Below are positions 7,505-61,986 of a stretch of 64,000 nucleotides of DNA, piece after piece. The stretch covers positions 26,124-90,123 of the forward strand of contig NZ_KB893725.1 in the NCBI RefSeq assembly GCF_000374165.1, in the 5' to 3' direction. A model generated the notes under the pieces. The model made no database searches. It was not told the origin of the DNA and saw only the letters and a list, made by a program, of their open reading frames with translations. The first letter of the stretch is position 1, and each line of letters opens with the position of its first letter. The DNA is from Parafrankia elaeagni. Its GTDB lineage: Bacteria; Actinomycetota; Actinomycetes; Frankiales; Frankiaceae. A program made the translations under genes and the position numbers.

Positions 7505-7534
7505 TCAGATCAGGTCAGGTCAGGTCAGGTCAGG
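7505..7534. repeat. Pentanucleotide TCAGG tandem array over a stop codon
   Basis: Five TCAGG units (7510-7534) preceded by one TCAGA (7505-7509). On the minus strand the unit reads CCTGA, so a 5-base period places TGA in all three frames. The stop codon of the downstream oxidoreductase gene (7525-7527) is one of these units. Confidence 0.9.
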
Positions 7535-8430
7535 AAGGTCTCGCCGAAGGCCTCGACGAAGGCGATGGTCTCGGCGGCGGAACGGGTGCGGGACGAGATC
7601 ACCGTCCAGGTCACACCGGCCTTCTCGATCTCGGCGAGGGCCTCGCGATGGCGGTCCACGTCGGTGGTGACGGCCTCGGCGGAGGTCACGCCCGAGTAGG
7701 AGTAGGACACGTCGATCAGGTCGGTGCGGCCGTTCGCCGCGGCGGTGTCCCGCATCTCGCGGATCATGCCGCCGAGGTCCGCGAGAGACCCGATCGAGAC
7801 CGTCCGGGCGGTGGTCGACAGCTCCGGGCCGCCGCCCATCGCCATCCAGCCCTGCCCGCGCGCGGCCACCCGCCGGCGGCTCAGCTTCGAGTTGCCGCCG
7901 ATCCAGATCGGAATCGGGTCCTGGACGGGCCGGGGCTGTGCGATCACGTTGCGGGCGTCGAAGTGCAGGCCCTTGAAGCTGAACGGCTCGCCGGACCAGT
8001 GTAGCGGCAGGACGTCGAGGATCTCGTCGAACAGGGCGTTGCGCTCCTCGAAGTCCACCCCCAGCGCGTAGAACTCGGACTTCTGGTAGCCCGTGCCGAT
8101 ACCCAGCGTGAACCGGCCGCCGGAGACCTTGTCGACGGTCGCCGCCGCCTTGGCGAGCAGGAACGGGTTGCGGTAGGGGGCGACCGACAGGTGGGTGAGC
8201 AGCCGCAGCCGCTCGGTAACGGCGGCCACGTAGCCCAGGCCGACGAACGGGTCGAGGCTCTGGTGCCCGCCGTTCTCCAGCCAGCGGGCGCCGGGAACCG
8301 GGTGCTCGGTGAGGGACAGCGCGTCGAACCCGGCCTTCTCGGCGGCCCGGGCGACATCCCCGAGCGGTCCGGGGTCGAGGAAGTCGCCGCTGGTCCCCGA
8401 CGTCTCCGGGTAATGAAAGATGTAGCGCAT
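7525..8430 (-). CDS. LLM-class, probably F420-dependent, oxidoreductase (paralogue of the gene at 61084)
   Basis: The 301-aa protein has the luciferase-like TIM-barrel pattern. It opens with MRYIFHYPETSG, then KAGFDALSLTEHPVPG, VAPYRNPFLLAKAAATVDKV, GRFTLGIGTGYQKSEF and PIPIWIGGNSKLSRRRVAARG. The last two are typical of the actinobacterial F420-dependent TIGR03619-type group, which binds the deazaflavin at the barrel mouth. F420 use is inferred from the family. The 61084 protein is clearly its paralogue and keeps the same landmarks. The two C-termini differ by a few residues, and this one ends inside the TCAGG array. Confidence 0.9.
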   Translation of the reverse strand: MRYIFHYPETSGTSGDFLDPGPLGDVARAAEKAGFDALSLTEHPVPGARWLENGGHQSLDPFVGLGYVAAVTERLRLLTHLSVAPYRNPFLLAKAAATVDKVSGGRFTLGIGTGYQKSEFYALGVDFEERNALFDEILDVLPLHWSGEPFSFKGLHFDARNVIAQPRPVQDPIPIWIGGNSKLSRRRVAARGQGWMAMGGGPELSTTARTVSIGSLADLGGMIREMRDTAAANGRTDLIDVSYSYSGVTSAEAVTTDVDRHREALAEIEKAGVTWTVISSRTRSAAETIAFVEAFGETFLT

Positions 8431-24437: not shown

Positions 24438-25265
24438 ATGCCCACCACCCAGACCTCACCGGACCTGGCCGCCGTCACGGAACGCCAGCGGCAGACCTGG
24501 TCCAGCGGGAACTTCGCGAAGGTCGCGGCCCGCATCGTGCTCAGCAGCGAGCTGCTCGCCGACGCCGCCGACCTGCACGCCGGCTGGCGCGTGCTGGACG
24601 TCGCCTGCGGCACCGGCAACGCCGCGATCGCCGCCGCCCGCGCCGGCGCCCAGGTCGTCGGCATCGACTACGTTCCCCAGCTGCTGGCGGACGCCGAGGC
24701 ACGGTCCCGCGCCGAAGGTCTCGACGCCGAGTTCCGGGTCGGCGACGTCCAGCACCTGCCGGTGCCCGACGGCAGCTTCGACGCGGTCCTCAGCGTCTTC
24801 GGCTCGATGTTCGCGCCCGACCACCGGCGCACCGCCGCCGAGATCGTGCGCGCGGCGCGCCCCGGCGGGATCGTCGGCCTCGCCTCGTGGACGCCCGACG
24901 GCTTCGTCGGGGAGATGTTCCGGGTCATCTCCACGTTCGTCCCGCCGCCGGCCGGAGTCAGTTCCCCGCTGCTGTGGGGAACCCGCCCACACCTGGACGA
25001 CCTTTTCGGCAACGCGATCGCCACGGCGGAATCCGTCGAACAGACGTGTACCTTCCGCTTCGCGTCCGCCGAGGAGTTCGTCGCCTTCTTCCGCCGCTGG
25101 TACGGCCCGACCTTCAAGGCCTTCGAAGCCCTTGATCCGGCCGGGCGCGACCAGCTCGCAGCCGAGCTCACCGACCTGGCCCGCCGCTGGGACCGCTACG
25201 GCGGAAGCGAGAACGCGGTCGCCCTGCCCTCGACCTATCTCCAGACAGTCATCACCCTCCGTTAG
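24438..25265 (+). CDS. Class I SAM-dependent methyltransferase
   Basis: The 275-aa protein has a complete Rossmann methyltransferase core: motif I VLDVACGTGNAAIAAARAGA, the acidic motif II end GIDYVPQLLADA, motif III region FRVGDVQHLPVPDGSFDAVL and motif IV SVFGSMFAPDHRRTAAEIVR. It resembles the UbiE/type-11 group. GAGGAG lies 5 bases upstream of ATG 24438; the open frame extends further upstream into the regulator region without a better start. Divergent transcription from an HxlR-type regulator implies induction by an electrophile or aromatic compound. The methyl acceptor is unknown. Confidence 0.92.
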   Translation: MPTTQTSPDLAAVTERQRQTWSSGNFAKVAARIVLSSELLADAADLHAGWRVLDVACGTGNAAIAAARAGAQVVGIDYVPQLLADAEARSRAEGLDAEFRVGDVQHLPVPDGSFDAVLSVFGSMFAPDHRRTAAEIVRAARPGGIVGLASWTPDGFVGEMFRVISTFVPPPAGVSSPLLWGTRPHLDDLFGNAIATAESVEQTCTFRFASAEEFVAFFRRWYGPTFKAFEALDPAGRDQLAAELTDLARRWDRYGGSENAVALPSTYLQTVITLR

Positions 25266-31601: not shown

Positions 31602-32951
31602 TCAGGCCTGGACGCGGCTGGACGCCAGATGAGCGAGAACAGCCTGGTTGGCGGCCCAGCCGTCCGGGAACCGAACCGGCTCCCCGAGGTGCACGGGATC
31701 GCTGGTGGGGTGGGCGTCGAGCAGGTCCCGGATGCCGGCCCGGGCGACGACCAGGCAGGCCTGCCGATGCCGGGAGGCCAGGACGCACAGCCGGCCGGCT
31801 TCCAGGTGGAAGGCGGTGGCGTCGCGCCGGCCGGAGAGCGGATGCAGGATCACGGTGACCTCGTACTCCCGGCCCTGCAGGCGGTTGGCGGTGTCCACCA
31901 CGATCCGGTCGTCGCCGAGAGCCGCGCGGATGGCCACCACCTGATCCCGGTGGGCGGCTCCGACCGCGACCCGGTCCGCGGTGACCAGGGTCTCCTCGCC
32001 ACCGGATCGGGCGACCGTGCCCCGCTCGAGAACCCGTCGGGTGAGGGCCGCGACGGCCGCGACGGCTTCGGCGTCCGTGCGCACGGTGTGGCGGGCGGGG
32101 AGTTCGAGCAGCCCCCAGCCGGTGCCCGCGGCGATGTCGAGGACCTCGTCCACCGGCCGGTCGCCCCGCCCGGGGAGCACCAGGCCACGTTCCCCGAGGT
32201 CGGTGCCTGTCCGGAACCCGGTGAACGGGTAGAAGGCGTCGGCGACCACGGCCTGGGCGGTGCGCGGCAGGCGCCACGACACCGGCAGGCGGTGCACCGG
32301 CAGGTCGGGGTTGGTTCGCTGCAGTACGGCGACGGCGCTCTGCATCGGGTTCCAGACCAGGCCGTGCCAGCGGTCGTTGGTGACCGTGGAGAACGGGTCG
32401 AGCTGACCCGGGTCGCCGACGAACAGTGCCCGTTCGAACCGGGAGGCCATGGCCAGCAGCGTGTCCGACCGCATCTGGTACGCCTCGTCGATGATCGCCC
32501 AGGGCCACGTCCCGTCCCGGACGTACGTCCATTTCGCCGCTGTCGAGATGGTCACGGCCGGTTCGCCGAGTCCACCGACGTCGCTCGCGGTGACCACGTT
32601 CGTGAGCTCCGCCAGGCGGGGGGACGGGACGTAGCCGGCGCGGCCGAGGCGTCCGATCCGGGCGCCGGGCAGCTCCGCGGCAAAGCGCGCCGACAACCGC
32701 TCGACGAGGTCGTCGACCTGTTCGTTGGTCTGGGCGACGATCATCAGCGGTTCGCCGGAGGCGGCGAGGACAGCGGCGGTCCGGACTACGAGGGTCGACT
32801 TCCCGGCACCGGGCGGCGAGTCGACGATGACGCCACGGTGACACCCCGACGCCAGATCGTCCAGGATCCCGCGGATGGCCTGCTCGGCCTCGGCGGCCGC
32901 CGAACGGCCGGCCGCCGCCGAGCGCCCAGGCCCGGCGGAGAGGGTCGTCAT
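31602..32951 (-). CDS. SF1 (Upf1/Dna2-type) helicase-like ATPase
   Basis: The 449-aa protein carries Walker A SPPGAGKST (residues 45-53), a Q/Thr-rich motif Ia (IVAQTNEQVDDLVERL), Walker B with DEAYQ (155-159) and motif III GDPGQLDPF (179-187). Motif V is VDTANRLQGREYEVTVI and the motif VI region is LASRHRQACLVVAR. DEA-x-Q plus GDPxQLxP plus the QGxE motif V define SF1B Upf1/Dna2/SMUBP2-like helicases, which move 5'-3' on single strands. It is shorter than most, lacking obvious 1B/1C insert domains. Its ATG overlaps the stop of the preceding gene (ATGA), so it is translated with the unknown 515-residue protein and the Fe-S nuclease upstream. Confidence 0.85.
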   Translation of the reverse strand: MTTLSAGPGRSAAAGRSAAAEAEQAIRGILDDLASGCHRGVIVDSPPGAGKSTLVVRTAAVLAASGEPLMIVAQTNEQVDDLVERLSARFAAELPGARIGRLGRAGYVPSPRLAELTNVVTASDVGGLGEPAVTISTAAKWTYVRDGTWPWAIIDEAYQMRSDTLLAMASRFERALFVGDPGQLDPFSTVTNDRWHGLVWNPMQSAVAVLQRTNPDLPVHRLPVSWRLPRTAQAVVADAFYPFTGFRTGTDLGERGLVLPGRGDRPVDEVLDIAAGTGWGLLELPARHTVRTDAEAVAAVAALTRRVLERGTVARSGGEETLVTADRVAVGAAHRDQVVAIRAALGDDRIVVDTANRLQGREYEVTVILHPLSGRRDATAFHLEAGRLCVLASRHRQACLVVARAGIRDLLDAHPTSDPVHLGEPVRFPDGWAANQAVLAHLASSRVQA

Positions 32952-34495
32952 TCCCAGACCTCCGCGGTGTCACGTTCGGTCGGCTCGTAGGGCTCGGGCG
33001 GACCGCCGTGCGTCCACGGGGTGTCCGCGGCGTCCGGCATGGCGACGGAGCGGACTCCGTCGGCGAGGACCGCGCTGTAGCAGAGGGTCTCACCCGCCTC
33101 CGGAACCGAGCCCGGGGCGGGAGCCGCGGACCGGCCCATTCCGCTCTGCGCCTCCAGAGTGATCAGAATCGCGCCCGTGGCGCCCCGGCCGCCGTCCGCG
33201 CCGGTGCCGATGTCCGCGACAGTGTCGCCGCCATCCCCAGGGGAATCAATCGCGACGATGAGGCATTCCTGCTTCCGCCGGCTGCTGGCGACGACGCGGG
33301 TACCGAGGGCGAGGCGGACCGGGTCCTCCGTCCGCACGGTGAGCAGGGGGCGGGTGACGAGCCGGCCCTTGCCCCGGCCGTTGGGGACACGCCGGTCGCG
33401 GTCGACGGCGAGAACGGTGCCCTGGAAGGCCTCGCCGGTGACCCGATGGTCGGCCATGACCAGCGGGTCGTCGAAGGCGCGTTCGGCGTCGTAGGCGGAC
33501 TGGGCCGCTTCGATGCGGTTCAGCCGCCGCGCGGCCGCGACCGCGCCGTCGAGGCGGGCCTGCGGCAGGCCCTCCTCGGCCATGTAGGTGTGGAATCCCG
33601 TGTAGCGGGCGCGGTCGGTCTCCCAGCGGCCGGCGACCGACGCGCCGGGCGGTAGCTGGCGGAGCAGGTCGAGGGCGCGCCAGACCAGGTCCCAGGTCGG
33701 CTGGAGCTGGCCGCGCAGGACGTCCCGCAGACGTGCCAGCACCGTCGGCAGCGCGGCGGGATCGGTCACCGCGTCGTAGGCGGCGATCGCGGGGGCGAGG
33801 ATGTCGTTGTCGAAGCCGGGGTCGGTGGTGGGGCCCGCCGGCGGGCTGTGCGCCGGGTCCTCGGCGAGGCGGGCGGACGTCGGACCGTCCCGGCCGGGAG
33901 GCGGGTCGATCCAGCCCATGGCGGCGGCGAGGTTCGCGTCCTCGAGGGCGCTCTGCCCGGTCGCCCAGTGCAGGGAGAGCAGGTCGGTGACGGCCCGGGC
34001 CAGCGAGGAGCCGGGGATCTCCGCCCGCTCGGCGAAGAAGGTGAGCCACCGCCCGAGCAGGGGAACGCTCGGCGGGACGGCGTAGTCACCGTCGGTGGCA
34101 CGGAAGCGGGTGGAACGACCGAACAGCCGCAGGAAGGCGAGGCCCGCCGGGTTGGGCAGGATCAGCTGGGGGGCGTCGTGGGCCCGCGGCCCGTTCGCGA
34201 GCTCCTCGGCGTCGGCGGCGAAGCCGAGGACGTGCGGCAGGACGATCTCGGCGAGGTCGGCCGCGAAGGCGAAGCGCAGGTCGCGGTTGCGCGGCTGGGG
34301 CACGACGAGGAGGGTCGGGTCGGCCTGGCGGGTCCCGACGAGCGCGGCGAGCGGGGCGTTCGCCTCACCGGCCAGCGTCAGCGGGACGAGGACGAGCGGA
34401 CGCTCGGACAGGTGCACATGACGCACGGTGGCGATCGGCGCGGCCGTCCCGGTGGCGGCGGCGAGCGCGCGGGCGTACGAGCTGATCGCGCTCAC
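32948..34495 (-). CDS. Unrecognised 515-aa protein between nuclease and helicase
   Basis: I do not recognise this protein. It starts at GTG 34495 (overlapping the nuclease stop as GTGA) and ends overlapping the helicase start. The N-terminal about 200 residues are mixed alpha/beta with repeated short hydrophobic strands (RPLVLVPLTLAGEANAPLAA, LRFAFAADLAEIVLPHVLGF). The middle has a helical, Trp/Arg-containing region (WDLVWRALDLLRQLPPGASV, YTGFHTYMAEEGLPQARLDG). The C-terminal about 130 residues look like a beta-barrel (EAFQGTVLAVDRDRRVPNGR, PVRLALGTRVVASSRRKQEC). Such a barrel is what the 1B domain of Upf1/Dna2-type helicases normally provides and what the small helicase here lacks; that link is inference. 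Confidence 0.75.
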   Translation of the reverse strand: MSAISSYARALAAATGTAAPIATVRHVHLSERPLVLVPLTLAGEANAPLAALVGTRQADPTLLVVPQPRNRDLRFAFAADLAEIVLPHVLGFAADAEELANGPRAHDAPQLILPNPAGLAFLRLFGRSTRFRATDGDYAVPPSVPLLGRWLTFFAERAEIPGSSLARAVTDLLSLHWATGQSALEDANLAAAMGWIDPPPGRDGPTSARLAEDPAHSPPAGPTTDPGFDNDILAPAIAAYDAVTDPAALPTVLARLRDVLRGQLQPTWDLVWRALDLLRQLPPGASVAGRWETDRARYTGFHTYMAEEGLPQARLDGAVAAARRLNRIEAAQSAYDAERAFDDPLVMADHRVTGEAFQGTVLAVDRDRRVPNGRGKGRLVTRPLLTVRTEDPVRLALGTRVVASSRRKQECLIVAIDSPGDGGDTVADIGTGADGGRGATGAILITLEAQSGMGRSAAPAPGSVPEAGETLCYSAVLADGVRSVAMPDAADTPWTHGGPPEPYEPTERDTAEVWE

Positions 34496-35721
34496 CCGTC
34501 GGCACCGCCGAGCGGCAGGGGCGCGCCGGCCAGCGCCTCGGCGTACATCCTGGCGGTGATCCGCAGGCGTTCGGCGGCTTCGGCCTGGTCCTCGGCCGGC
34601 GCGCGGGTGCCGTGGGCGAGGCCGAGCGCCTCGGTGACGGTGTCGATGCCACCGAGGTCCTCGCGCACGCTCGCGCCGAGGGCGGCCGTGCGGCCGGCGG
34701 CCTCGTGCCGGCAGCGGAACGCGAGCTCGCAGGTGGACAGGCAGTCCGGTGTGTAGCGGGCGTCGAGCAGGTCGAGTCCCGCGGTGAGCTCGGTGGCGGG
34801 CCGGGTCGGCGCACCGTCCGGGCCGGCGGCGAGGTCGAAGGTCAGGCCGGCGGGCAGGTCGTCGAGCAGAGCCTCGATGGTGGCCAGCCGGGTGAGCTGA
34901 TGCTCGAGTCCGAGCAGCTGCCGCCGGACGTCGACCCTGGTCGCCAGGGGCGCGTTGGAGAAGTCGCGGGGGCACACGAGGACCACATCGTGGGAGACGG
35001 TGGCCGGCGGGACGACCGGCATCATCGGCACGGTCGGGACGACCTCGCGAGCGCGCAGCATCCGGCGCAGTGCCAGCACGTAGACGGCGGCCTGGACCGC
35101 GGCGGCCGCGACCTTCTCCCCGTCGGCCTGCCCGTCGACGACCGGGAACGACTTGATCTCGACGATGTGGAACTGCCCGTCGGGGCGGATCACCAGCAGG
35201 TCCGGTTCCAGGTGGACGTCCTGCCCGCCGACGGGCAGCGCCAGCAGCGGATGGGCGACGAGAACGATCCCGTGCGGGTCCGGGCGCAGCGCGGCGACCG
35301 TCCGGTCCAGCCGGTCCGCGAGGTTCTCCGCGGCCGGGCGGACCCCCCCGCCCTGCTCGGCGGACGCGCCGAGGTCGACGACGGTGACACCGGGGGAACC
35401 CTCGGGGCCGGGATCGAACCCCAGGCAGTCCGCCAGGAGACGGAGCAGATCGGTGCCACCGTCGTTCCTGACCCGGGCCTCGAAGGCGTTGCCGCGGATG
35501 ATCGCGAACTGGGACTGGCCGAAAGGGGCCGCGAAGCCGATGTGGCGGGACAGGCCGTCCTTGTCCACCCCGGCGGCGTCGAGGACGGCCCGCCGGTTGC
35601 ACCCTGGGTTACGGGTCAGTGCCGCGATGGTGCGCGCGTCGTGGCGCCGGCGGGCGGCGGAGCCTCGGATGAGGTCGAGGCGCGCCTCGGTCCGGTTCTG
35701 CTCTGACCCCCGGTTCTGCAC
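34492..35721 (-). CDS. PD-(D/E)XK nuclease of RecB/Cas4 type with a predicted Fe-S cluster
   Basis: The 409-aa protein shows the full nuclease signature: E81 in RGNAFEARVR, D174 in HLEPDLLVIRPDG, E188-x-K190 in FHIVEIKSF, and the RecB/Cas4-specific Q210-x3-Y214 (QAAVY). Four cysteines, C41 near the N-terminus and C327-x3-C331-x5-C337 near the C-terminus, mirror the 4Fe-4S pin of Cas4, AddB and Dna2. GTG 35721 is preceded by AAGGTGGG and fits the domain start; the frame extends upstream in unrelated sequence. It is followed by overlapping genes for a 515-aa protein and a helicase. There are no cas genes or CRISPR repeats, so Cas4 adaptation function is unlikely. DNA end processing or defence is inferred. 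Confidence 0.85.
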   Translation of the reverse strand: MQNRGSEQNRTEARLDLIRGSAARRRHDARTIAALTRNPGCNRRAVLDAAGVDKDGLSRHIGFAAPFGQSQFAIIRGNAFEARVRNDGGTDLLRLLADCLGFDPGPEGSPGVTVVDLGASAEQGGGVRPAAENLADRLDRTVAALRPDPHGIVLVAHPLLALPVGGQDVHLEPDLLVIRPDGQFHIVEIKSFPVVDGQADGEKVAAAAVQAAVYVLALRRMLRAREVVPTVPMMPVVPPATVSHDVVLVCPRDFSNAPLATRVDVRRQLLGLEHQLTRLATIEALLDDLPAGLTFDLAAGPDGAPTRPATELTAGLDLLDARYTPDCLSTCELAFRCRHEAAGRTAALGASVREDLGGIDTVTEALGLAHGTRAPAEDQAEAAERLRITARMYAEALAGAPLPLGGADG

Positions 35722-35815
35722 TGACCCACCTTCGTGACGGCCGTCGTCGCGGAGCAACCGCGGGCAACGATGCCGTCGACGGGGGCGTCCGTCCAGTCTT
35801 GTGCCGGCATGTCGG

Positions 35816-36069
35816 TCAATGAGTTCGTGGCCGGGGCCGGGCGCAGGCGTCCTTGAGGGCGTCCGCGAGGATGCCGAAGGAGTCGAGCGTGCCGCCGGGC
35901 GCGCCGTCGATCTCGGGGAGGTTGTCGGTGGTGACCCTGCGCTCGCCGAGGACGCCGCGCAGGTCGGCGACGAGCTGGTTGCGCCCGCCGGCCTGCGTGA
36001 ACAGCGTGGTCCCGGTGAAGTAGGGTCCGCTATCGCCTTCTTTATCTTGTCCTGATCCTTCGCGGCCAC
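35816..36069 (-). pseudogene. Small gene with a frameshift upstream of the nuclease operon
   Basis: GTG 36069 has GAGAGGAA 6 bases upstream and opens AAKDQDKIKKAIADP. In the frame one base off, the sequence immediately continues as YFTGTTLFTQAGGRNQLVAD, then LRGVLGERRVTTDNLPEIDG and a stop at 35816-35818. A single inserted base near 36022-36026 would join them into about 85 aa of well-behaved, charged, helical sequence. Neither frame alone gives a convincing protein. I do not recognise the family. It may be a sequencing error, a genuine lesion, or a programmed frameshift site. It lies just 94 bases before the nuclease start on the same strand and could be the first gene of that operon. Confidence 0.5.
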
Positions 36070-36220
36070 CGGTGATTCCTCTCCCATAGGACGACGAGTA
36101 CGGGAGGAGCATTACCGAGGTCCAGCGAGATCGCCGACCCGGAACAATGCGCGAGATCCGGGAGAACAATGCGGGACGAGCTTTCTCCCGGATCACGCGG
36201 CGACATCTCCGGAAAGGATT

Positions 36221-60147: not shown

Positions 60148-60972
60148 ATGTCCCTGTTTGACGCGTTCCGATTCGACGGGAAACGGGTTCTCGTGGTGGG
60201 CGGCGCCACCGGAATGGGCGCCGCGGCTGCCGAGCTGGCGCAGAGCGCCGGTGCCGAAGTCGTGGTGATGGACTACGCCGACGTCGCCCTCGCCGGCGCG
60301 ACGGCGATCACCGTCAACCTCGCGGACGTCGCCTCCATCGACGCCGCCGTCGAGGAGTGCGGCGGGCCGGTCCACGCGGTCCTGGCCTGTGCGGGTGTCG
60401 CCGACGGCACCCCGGGCATCGAGAAGATCAATTTTCTCGGCCACCGCTACCTGATCGAACGGCTGCTGTCCGCCGGCGCCCTCCCGCCCGGGTCGGCGAT
60501 CGGTTTCATCTCCTCCGCGGTCGGTCTGGGCTGGGAGAAGAACCTCCCGGAGCTGCGCGAGTATCTCGCCATCACCGACGTCGAGAAGGCCTCGGCCTGG
60601 GCCGTCGAGCGTGGCCGGGCCACCTACCTGTGGAGCAAGCAGACCGTCTGCGCGTACGTGGCCAGCGAGTCGCTGCGCCTGCTCAAGCTGGGCATCCGTA
60701 TCAACGCCATCTGCCCGGGGCCGACCGAGACTCCACTCGCGCAGGCGAACAAGGAGACCTGGCTCGGATTCGGTGCCGACTACCGGGCCGAGGCCGGCGT
60801 TGAGGTGGCCACCTCCCTGGAACAGGCCTACCCGCTGCTCTTCCTGTGCAGCGACGCCGCGACCGCGATCAGCGGCATCACCCTGATCACCGATTCGGGC
60901 TACTTCGGCGCCGGTGTCACCGAGTCCTTCCCCGCCGCGGCGGCAGCGGTGAAGTTCGTTCTCAGCCTCTGA
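60148..60972 (+). CDS. SDR family oxidoreductase (paralogue of the gene at 1854)
   Basis: The 274-aa SDR has GGATGMG at 18-24, Ser 122/123 and Tyr160-x3-Lys164 (YLWSK), plus the same long Ser-Tyr insertion (GLGWEKNLPELREYLAITD) as the 1854 protein. By eye about three quarters of residues match that protein over the first 170 positions. GGAGGAG lies about 12 bases before ATG 60148. It is followed by an F420-type oxidoreductase that is itself paralogous to the one at 7525, so the two loci are partial duplicates. A hydroxyl-oxidising role on a polycyclic or terpenoid CoA substrate is an inference from the neighbourhood. Confidence 0.92.
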   Translation: MSLFDAFRFDGKRVLVVGGATGMGAAAAELAQSAGAEVVVMDYADVALAGATAITVNLADVASIDAAVEECGGPVHAVLACAGVADGTPGIEKINFLGHRYLIERLLSAGALPPGSAIGFISSAVGLGWEKNLPELREYLAITDVEKASAWAVERGRATYLWSKQTVCAYVASESLRLLKLGIRINAICPGPTETPLAQANKETWLGFGADYRAEAGVEVATSLEQAYPLLFLCSDAATAISGITLITDSGYFGAGVTESFPAAAAAVKFVLSL

Positions 60973-61083: not shown

Positions 61084-61986
61084 ATGCGATTCGTGTATCA
61101 CTATCCCGAAACCAACGGCCTCGAGCGCGACATGCTCGACGCCGGGGCCATCGGTGCGGTGGCGGCAGCGGCGGAGAAGGCCGGGTTCCACGGCCTCTGT
61201 CTCAGTGAGCACCCCGCACCGAGCGCACGCTGGCTCGCCTCCGGCGGTCATCAGAGCCTCGACCCGTTCGTCGCGCTCGGGCACGTCGCCGCCGTGACCA
61301 CGCGGCTCCGGCTGCACACCAATCTCTCGGTCGCGCCCTACCGCAACCCGTTCCTGCTCGCGAAGGCGGCGGCCACCGTCGACAAGCTCTCCGGCGGACG
61401 GCTCGTGCTCGGCCTCGGGGCCGGATACATGAAGACCGAGTTCTACGCGCTCGGGGTGGACATGGCCGAGCGCAACGTCCTGTTCGACGAGGTGCTCGAC
61501 GTGCTCCCGCTGCACTGGAGCGGTGAGCCGTTCAGCTACCAGGGCCGCCACTTCGACGCCCGCAACGTCATCGCCCGGCCCCGGCCGGTGCAGAACCCCA
61601 TTCCGATCTGGATCGGCGGCAACTCGAAACTGGCACGGCGCCGGGTCGCCGAACGGGCTCAGGGATGGATGCCGCTGGTGGGACCGCCCGAGCTCAGCGC
61701 CGCCGTCCGCACCACCGCGATCGGTTCACTGGCGGAACTGGGCAGCATGATCAGCGAGATTCGCGAGACGGCCGCGGCCGCCGGGCGGACGGACCCGATC
61801 GACCTGCAGTACTCCTACAAGGACCGCTCCATCGCCACACCGGCGGTCGAGGCCGACCGCCACCGCGCCGCTCTGGCCGAGATCGAGAAGGCCGGCGTGA
61901 CCACGGTGATCGTGTCCAGCCCGTCGGTGTCGCCCGAGGCCACCTTCGAGTTCCTCGAAGCCTTCGGCGCCACCTACCTGTCCTGA
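61084..61986 (+). CDS. LLM-class, probably F420-dependent, oxidoreductase (paralogue of the gene at 7525)
   Basis: The 300-aa TIM-barrel oxidoreductase carries MRFVYHYPETNGLERD, GFHGLCLSEHPAPSARW, VAPYRNPFLLAKAAATVDKL, GLGAGYMKTEFYALGVDMAE and PIPIWIGGNSKLARRRVAER. These are the same landmarks as in the 7525 protein, with which it shares most positions in the first 200 residues. Deazaflavin F420 is inferred from the family. The C-terminal part differs in the KDRSIATPAVEADRHRAALA segment. It lies 111 bases after the SDR and 24 bases before the aldehyde dehydrogenase, likely in one operon. Confidence 0.9.
   Translation: MRFVYHYPETNGLERDMLDAGAIGAVAAAAEKAGFHGLCLSEHPAPSARWLASGGHQSLDPFVALGHVAAVTTRLRLHTNLSVAPYRNPFLLAKAAATVDKLSGGRLVLGLGAGYMKTEFYALGVDMAERNVLFDEVLDVLPLHWSGEPFSYQGRHFDARNVIARPRPVQNPIPIWIGGNSKLARRRVAERAQGWMPLVGPPELSAAVRTTAIGSLAELGSMISEIRETAAAAGRTDPIDLQYSYKDRSIATPAVEADRHRAALAEIEKAGVTTVIVSSPSVSPEATFEFLEAFGATYLS

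Follow-up and report, generated by a model that had tools for sequence, protein, structure and literature searches.

The window, the whole stretch of 64,000 nucleotides analysed here, carries an operon encoding a nuclease (NUC), a 515-residue middle protein (MID) and a helicase (HEL), and these probably make up one Dna2-like complex, with its domains on three chains, that acts at DNA ends. A three-chain helicase-nuclease of this kind is proposed because the operon repeats the domain order of Dna2, HEL leaves no room for a barrel, and MID has one; we put its probability at about 0.7. A Dna2 split into nuclease, middle subunit and helicase had already been suggested in a sequence-only reading of this DNA, and is supported by gene order, co-inheritance, motifs and the predicted folds of MID and NUC. 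The physical complex, its activity at DNA ends, its polarity and its role in defence or repair are each something that we infer. The gene set belongs to filamentous soil bacteria, is co-inherited, and is undescribed in the literature and libraries covered.

All three frames are present on the minus strand (Table 1), and the same three were chosen by a gene caller based on codon-position GC. The genome holding the window (G000) measures 7.6 Mb, and GC in the window is about 65-76%. Overlaps of start and stop codons had been claimed for both joints, and each is indeed a 4-bp overlap (34492-34495 for NUC/MID, 32948-32951 for MID/HEL). A small broken gene had also been placed before the set. This decayed gene does exist, but it is no part of the operon: the frame matches only residues 241-329 of a 403-residue alpha/beta hydrolase, which is full-length in four congeners (L032, L034, L035, L036) and incomplete in L031, and it was rejected as an operon member. 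In the sister locus L031 (genome G002), MID is 97% identical to that of the window, and a gene on the opposite strand between MID and HEL (L031:11808-12836) bears what we take to be a resemblance to TnpB of IS200/IS605. Elsewhere in the window, two look-alike gene pairs close to its two ends (1854-2681 with 60148-60972, and 7525-8430 with 61084-61986; first 60 residues compared) suggest a duplicated cluster, and a tRNA-Gly (gcc) predicted at 24557-24647, antisense within the predicted coding frame 24438-25265, is perhaps a false call.

Table 1. Features of the operon and its upstream flank, in window positions.
Feature	Position	Strand	Basis
NUC: PD-(D/E)XK nuclease, RecB/Cas4/EXO5 kind, with 4Fe-4S-like cysteine placement	34492..35721	-	sequence
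NUC Cys30 codon, first of four invariant cysteines	35599..35601	-	39/39 rows
NUC Cys316, Cys320 and Cys326 codons, C-x3-C-x5-C cluster	34711..34743	-	39/39 each
NUC stretch with codons D163, E177 and K179 of the predicted active site	35152..35202	-	36/39, 36/39, 39/39
MID: 515 aa, family without description in the libraries searched	32948..34495	-	profile searches, predicted structure
MID residues 31-338: fold resembling RNase H and, tentatively, the DnaQ/DEDD exonucleases; no recognisable D-x-E	33482..34405	-	predicted structure
MID residues 348-480: beta barrel resembling that of Upf1-type helicases	33056..33454	-	predicted structure
MID residues 493-500: C-terminal PWTHGGPP motif	32996..33019	-	7/8 positions 46/46, one 45/46
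HEL: SF1 helicase core, Upf1/Dna2 branch	31602..32951	-	Pfam, motifs, nearest solved sequences
Alpha/beta hydrolase remnant, decayed, outside the system	35846..36103	-	comparison with congeners

The NUC start was set at a GTG at 35721 by the gene caller and by resemblance to starts in relatives. Its residues are numbered by P0003, which starts 11 residues downstream of the earlier numbering, such that the residues first listed as E81, D174, E188, K190, Q210 and Y214 are here E70, D163, E177, K179, Q199 and Y203. As residues of a RecB/Cas4-type nuclease they stand up well in an alignment of 39 relatives, with E70, D163, E177 and Q199 each conserved in 36 and K179 and Y203 in all 39. The four cysteines (C30, C316, C320, C326), conserved throughout the same alignment, are placed as in Fe-S nucleases, just as had been remarked, and NUC may thus carry an Fe-S cluster. 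Nearly all fold matches to the predicted NUC structure are nucleases (EXO5, Cas4, RecB/AddAB/AdnAB and the lambda-exonuclease sort, including Dna2), with the best scores for EXO5 and Cas4 (9.6) and only 6.8 for Dna2. The best two rows of the NUC profile against PDB sequences (1.1e-5 and 1.3e-4) were repeat design proteins over 31 residues, and were taken as chance. A few NUC copies may be inactive, because three of the 39 lack D163 (L068, L107, L126), three others E177 (L081, L106, L122) and three E70; the D163 and E177 losses look, by sequence, as if nuclease activity had been lost repeatedly.

The middle protein, unrecognised at first reading, likewise found no match in Pfam, NCBIfam, PADLOC or PHROGs, and its profile gave nothing below E 0.05 against PDB sequences. 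Its structure was predicted with a pLDDT of 89.1 and a pTM of 0.86 (model m2e216d499ca0), and the larger part of the chain looks RNase H-like in that model, with a possible likeness to the DnaQ/DEDD type. DnaQ/DEDD exonucleases have a D-x-E motif in the first strand. In MID, the corresponding residues 34-41 contain no conserved acidic residue among 46 aligned rows, in all of which Pro38 is conserved, as is Glu44 just beyond. The beta-rich C-terminus had been suspected of supplying the helicase barrel, and is predicted to form a barrel whose closest fold match is that of Ighmbp2; the scores of ribosomal-particle chains (up to 8.0) and of further small barrels are little lower, and the Dna2 row has an rmsd of 7.0. 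To obtain a barrel profile from bacterial IGHMBP2-like helicases, 198 genomes were searched with TIGR00376, which yielded one partial, unusable match. The C-terminal PWTHGGPP motif is proposed as a partner contact.

The helicase motifs DSPPGAGKST, DEAYQ and GDPGQLDPF are invariant in 29 aligned rows, save for one position of the first, which agrees with the assignment of the last gene to SF1B. Its nearest solved sequences are Ighmbp2 (2.2e-11), DNA2 (2.6e-8) and UPF1 (1.8e-6). The profile match starts at the core of Ighmbp2 (its residue 201), without the barrel, and the Walker motif lies too near the start of HEL to leave a barrel before it. No family named UvrD appears among the 12 Pfam families listed up to E 1, and HEL weakly resembles other helicases in PADLOC and NCBIfam (MkoC 2e-8, PLuB_AAA 1.2e-9).

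In the proposed mechanism, HEL would be the motor, presumably moving 5' to 3' like other SF1B helicases, and MID would give it the missing beta barrel. With its putative degenerate exonuclease-fold domain, MID would probably also grip single-stranded DNA and dock HEL onto NUC, which, stabilised by its putative Fe-S cluster, would cut the strand fed to it. At DNA ends the complex would carry out resection or degradation; where the operon adjoins c39 (a fourth gene in many relatives), SbcCD, Wadjet or pPIWI-RE, it might finish off foreign DNA cut by those systems.

The operon is probably a DNA-degrading machine in defence or repair, because many relatives have it next to systems for destroying foreign DNA. 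On two Streptomyces plasmids, SbcC-SbcD, c39-NUC-MID-HEL and Wadjet JetABCD follow one another, with SbcC and SbcD fragmented on the second. When 246 Streptomyces genomes were searched for c39, 21 had a match, strong in 20 and at 4.8e-4 in the remaining one, and in this set, found via c39 and not randomly drawn, all 20 strong loci were fetched. Every one adjoins either SbcD (12 loci: L144, L181, L182, L184, L185, L191-L193, L195-L198) or pPIWI-RE (eight: L143, L183, L186-L190, L194). SbcC is present in ten of the 12 SbcD loci, with a mere piece of it in L185, and SbcD is itself a piece in L182. Wadjet genes occur in six of the 12 (type I in L181; II in L182, L185 and L191; III in L192 and L193), Wadjet and pPIWI-RE having been assigned by PADLOC on representatives and by BLASTP for the remainder, and within a single MID clade each of the types I, II and III has become a neighbour. 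One more named c39 locus of Streptomyces, L109, whose upstream side is cut by a contig end, shows neither SbcD nor pPIWI-RE, and carries GmrSD-like and AbiU-like genes. A dependence of pPIWI-RE on the cassette was rejected: PprDinG (1e-50 or better) is found in 63 of the 246 genomes, in eight of them beside the cassette.

Further loci with SbcD and SbcC next to the operon are L053, L099, L113 and L049; L049 also has two Wadjet-II-like genes, and L113 a JetD match of 30% identity. In the MID tree, built by a quick method and rooted at its midpoint, 18 of 128 rows have SbcD or SbcC near the operon, against a rough chance expectation of 0.44 rows. These rows occupy five places. Three of the five are basal and may go back to a single early association, which makes the count of independent events uncertain. 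The clade containing the window has L053 as its immediate outgroup.

The c39 protein has about 260 residues. Three c39 proteins gave no Pfam match above the cut-off, the c39 profile found nothing below E 0.05 among PDB sequences, and c39, NUC and MID of L140 had no match up to 0.001 in PADLOC-DB 2.0.0. In G530 and G604, c39 matches (L172, L177, L175, L178) are found some 24 kb in from either end of the main contig, a placement that terminal inverted repeats would produce, and in G570 the distance from the contig end to the start of the match is 4.7 kb.

Plasmid and phage defence in every lineage, with the chromosomal forms as fixed immune genes, comes close to an even bet as an account of this distribution. 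In addition to Wadjet I-III and pPIWI-RE, nine of ten flank proteins (three taken from Streptomyces loci, the remaining seven from different genera) matched PADLOC at 1e-20 or better, as Druantia DruE, type IV restriction (three), Cas3g, Shango SngC, AbiU and two GmrSD-like proteins, and the operon itself is interrupted between MID and HEL by a RhuM gene in L063 and by GmrSD-like genes in L075 and L077. However, these ten proteins were picked by eye, the window's flanks suggest no defence gene by gene calls, and close relatives have flanks in common and cluster by genus. No relative was found among viral contigs (22 pattern matches) and no match in phage records. Beside the window's operon there is neither c39 nor SbcCD, no BLASTP match to the Jet proteins used (window 20001-48000) and no pPIWI-RE found. 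No cas gene stood out in the gene calls of the window, and PADLOC-DB 2.0.0 holds no match to MID up to E 1 and only Cas4 for NUC, at E 0.011, in line with the original view that the operon has no cas genes and matches no known defence system. SbcD is above the family cut-off in 13 of 16 genomes; G000, G002 and G006 are without it, G000 reaching 59.1 bits against 77.65, and draft assemblies may miss genes.

A housekeeping role, in which the copy in the window's genus and the Streptomyces core copy serve chromosomal break resection or fork processing and the defence neighbours are secondary, is a real possibility that stays below even odds. MID is present in all seven genomes of the window's genus, where the flanking genes are largely common, and the Streptomyces-like L043-L045 also share flanks; these forms have no adjacent c39 or SbcCD, and of 16 genomes of the window's family searched throughout for c39, 15 are without it, G000 included (the exception is G035). 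Against this, the strong Streptomyces c39 copies without exception lie beside SbcD or pPIWI-RE, copies sit on two plasmids, and most of the actinobacterial genomes sampled are without the set, MID being found in 14 of 396 drawn over the phylum. The evidence on role thus divides: SbcCD, Wadjet and pPIWI-RE neighbours point to foreign-DNA destruction, and shared flanks in the window's genus to repair or fixed defence. A more specific proposal, tentative and with the odds leaning against it, is that actinomycetes evolved their own bacterial version of the pathway in which Mre11-Rad50 and Dna2 act, with a split Dna2 on a dead DnaQ-like scaffold that, with c39 and SbcCD, degrades the linear products of Wadjet and pPIWI-RE, and that some lineages, the window's included, fixed this split Dna2 chromosomally without those partners.

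Co-inheritance speaks for the three-chain complex itself. MID was found in 21 of 98 relatives. Of the 396 actinobacterial genomes, the 14 with MID are also those with strong NUC matches, the two genes being adjacent at 16/16 places, and chance association is thereby excluded; two weak NUC matches (5.6e-10, 2.8e-14) in this sample are in genomes without MID. Among the named loci, which are the best 80 of at least 580 (L051 and L052 share contigs with L032 and L033), MID adjoins the other two genes as the three-gene reading implies: NUC at 79, HEL at 70 and c39 at 60, some misses being contig ends. These counts are by tblastn, gene calls alone having missed MID in L103 and HEL in L049. In 20 fetched relatives the figures are NUC 20, MID 20, HEL 19 and c39 3. 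The sole named locus without NUC, L071, is cut by a contig end; of the ten without HEL, L081 ends soon past MID, and nine are Micromonosporaceae, unexplained by contig ends. A Micromonosporaceae clade (L090, L092, L098, L100, L102, L115, L119, L123, L145) keeps NUC and MID with no adjacent HEL, and in most of these loci a GGDEF/EAL-like protein (by eye) of about 700-780 residues comes next. Pairwise distances between loci correlate at r 0.911 for NUC/MID (123 loci), 0.921 for MID/HEL (114) and 0.947 for NUC/HEL (110), with shuffle maxima of at most 0.17; overall, protein distances give r 0.83-0.95, the main conflict being L144. That the operon encodes three enzymes acting in succession, without a Dna2-like assembly, is unlikely: the Micromonosporaceae clade and the genes inserted between MID and HEL favour it, but overlapping frames in called pairs (NUC-MID 72/127, MID-HEL 75/115), this strong co-inheritance, a barrel present in MID and missing in HEL, and a natural MID-HEL fusion (one 933-residue frame in L196, the sole fusion among the loci examined) all argue against it.

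If the Dna2-like reading is true, the operon is a natural dissection of Dna2 into nuclease, barrel/scaffold and motor, each separately testable, and offers a functional hypothesis for three families (MID, NUC, c39) without an above-threshold model in the libraries searched. Cleavage of small circular plasmids has been reported for Wadjet (PMC10586767); nothing was found, in the portion of that paper available, on what removes the linear products, for which the operon is a candidate. No title or abstract opening describing the set was among the matches listed in open PubMed Central texts; a description elsewhere is possible, since bioRxiv and subscription papers lay outside the search.

Among known systems, Wadjet (JetABCD) and pPIWI-RE are the operon's neighbours in Streptomyces, but are different proteins. 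In the part available of a survey of actinobacterial defence, Wadjet is enriched toward Streptomyces chromosome ends, and helicase, nuclease, SbcCD and PIWI do not occur in its main text (PMC10482375). Cas4, solo-Cas4 and human EXO5 share with NUC the nuclease fold and cysteine placement, but NUC has MID and HEL as partners. A Cas4 survey, as far as its text was available, associates nucleases resembling Cas4 with the helicases UvrD and YprA and names no set like NUC-MID-HEL (PMC5704561). The NUC fold is also like the nuclease domains of AddAB, AdnAB and RecBCD, with which the operon would share a DNA-end helicase-nuclease logic; unlike AddAB and RecBCD, it has a nuclease on its own chain and a helicase with no UvrD family in its Pfam list, against the UvrD-type SF1A motors there.

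The closest likeness is to Dna2, Ighmbp2 and Senataxin: a nuclease with Fe-S-type cysteines, a barrel and an SF1B core follow in identical order, HEL being nearest Ighmbp2 and DNA2 by sequence and the MID barrel nearest Ighmbp2 by fold. In Dna2, as described in the part of the source available, a barrel and stalk sit between nuclease and helicase (PMC4716839). The operon has each of these elements, namely a putative Fe-S PD-(D/E)XK nuclease (by sequence and predicted fold), a Upf1-like SF1B helicase and, in between, a predicted barrel with a helical stalk. It differs from Dna2 in dividing over three genes and chains what is there a single polypeptide, in the extra, predicted RNase H-like domain carried with the MID barrel, and in the c39 gene of many relatives.
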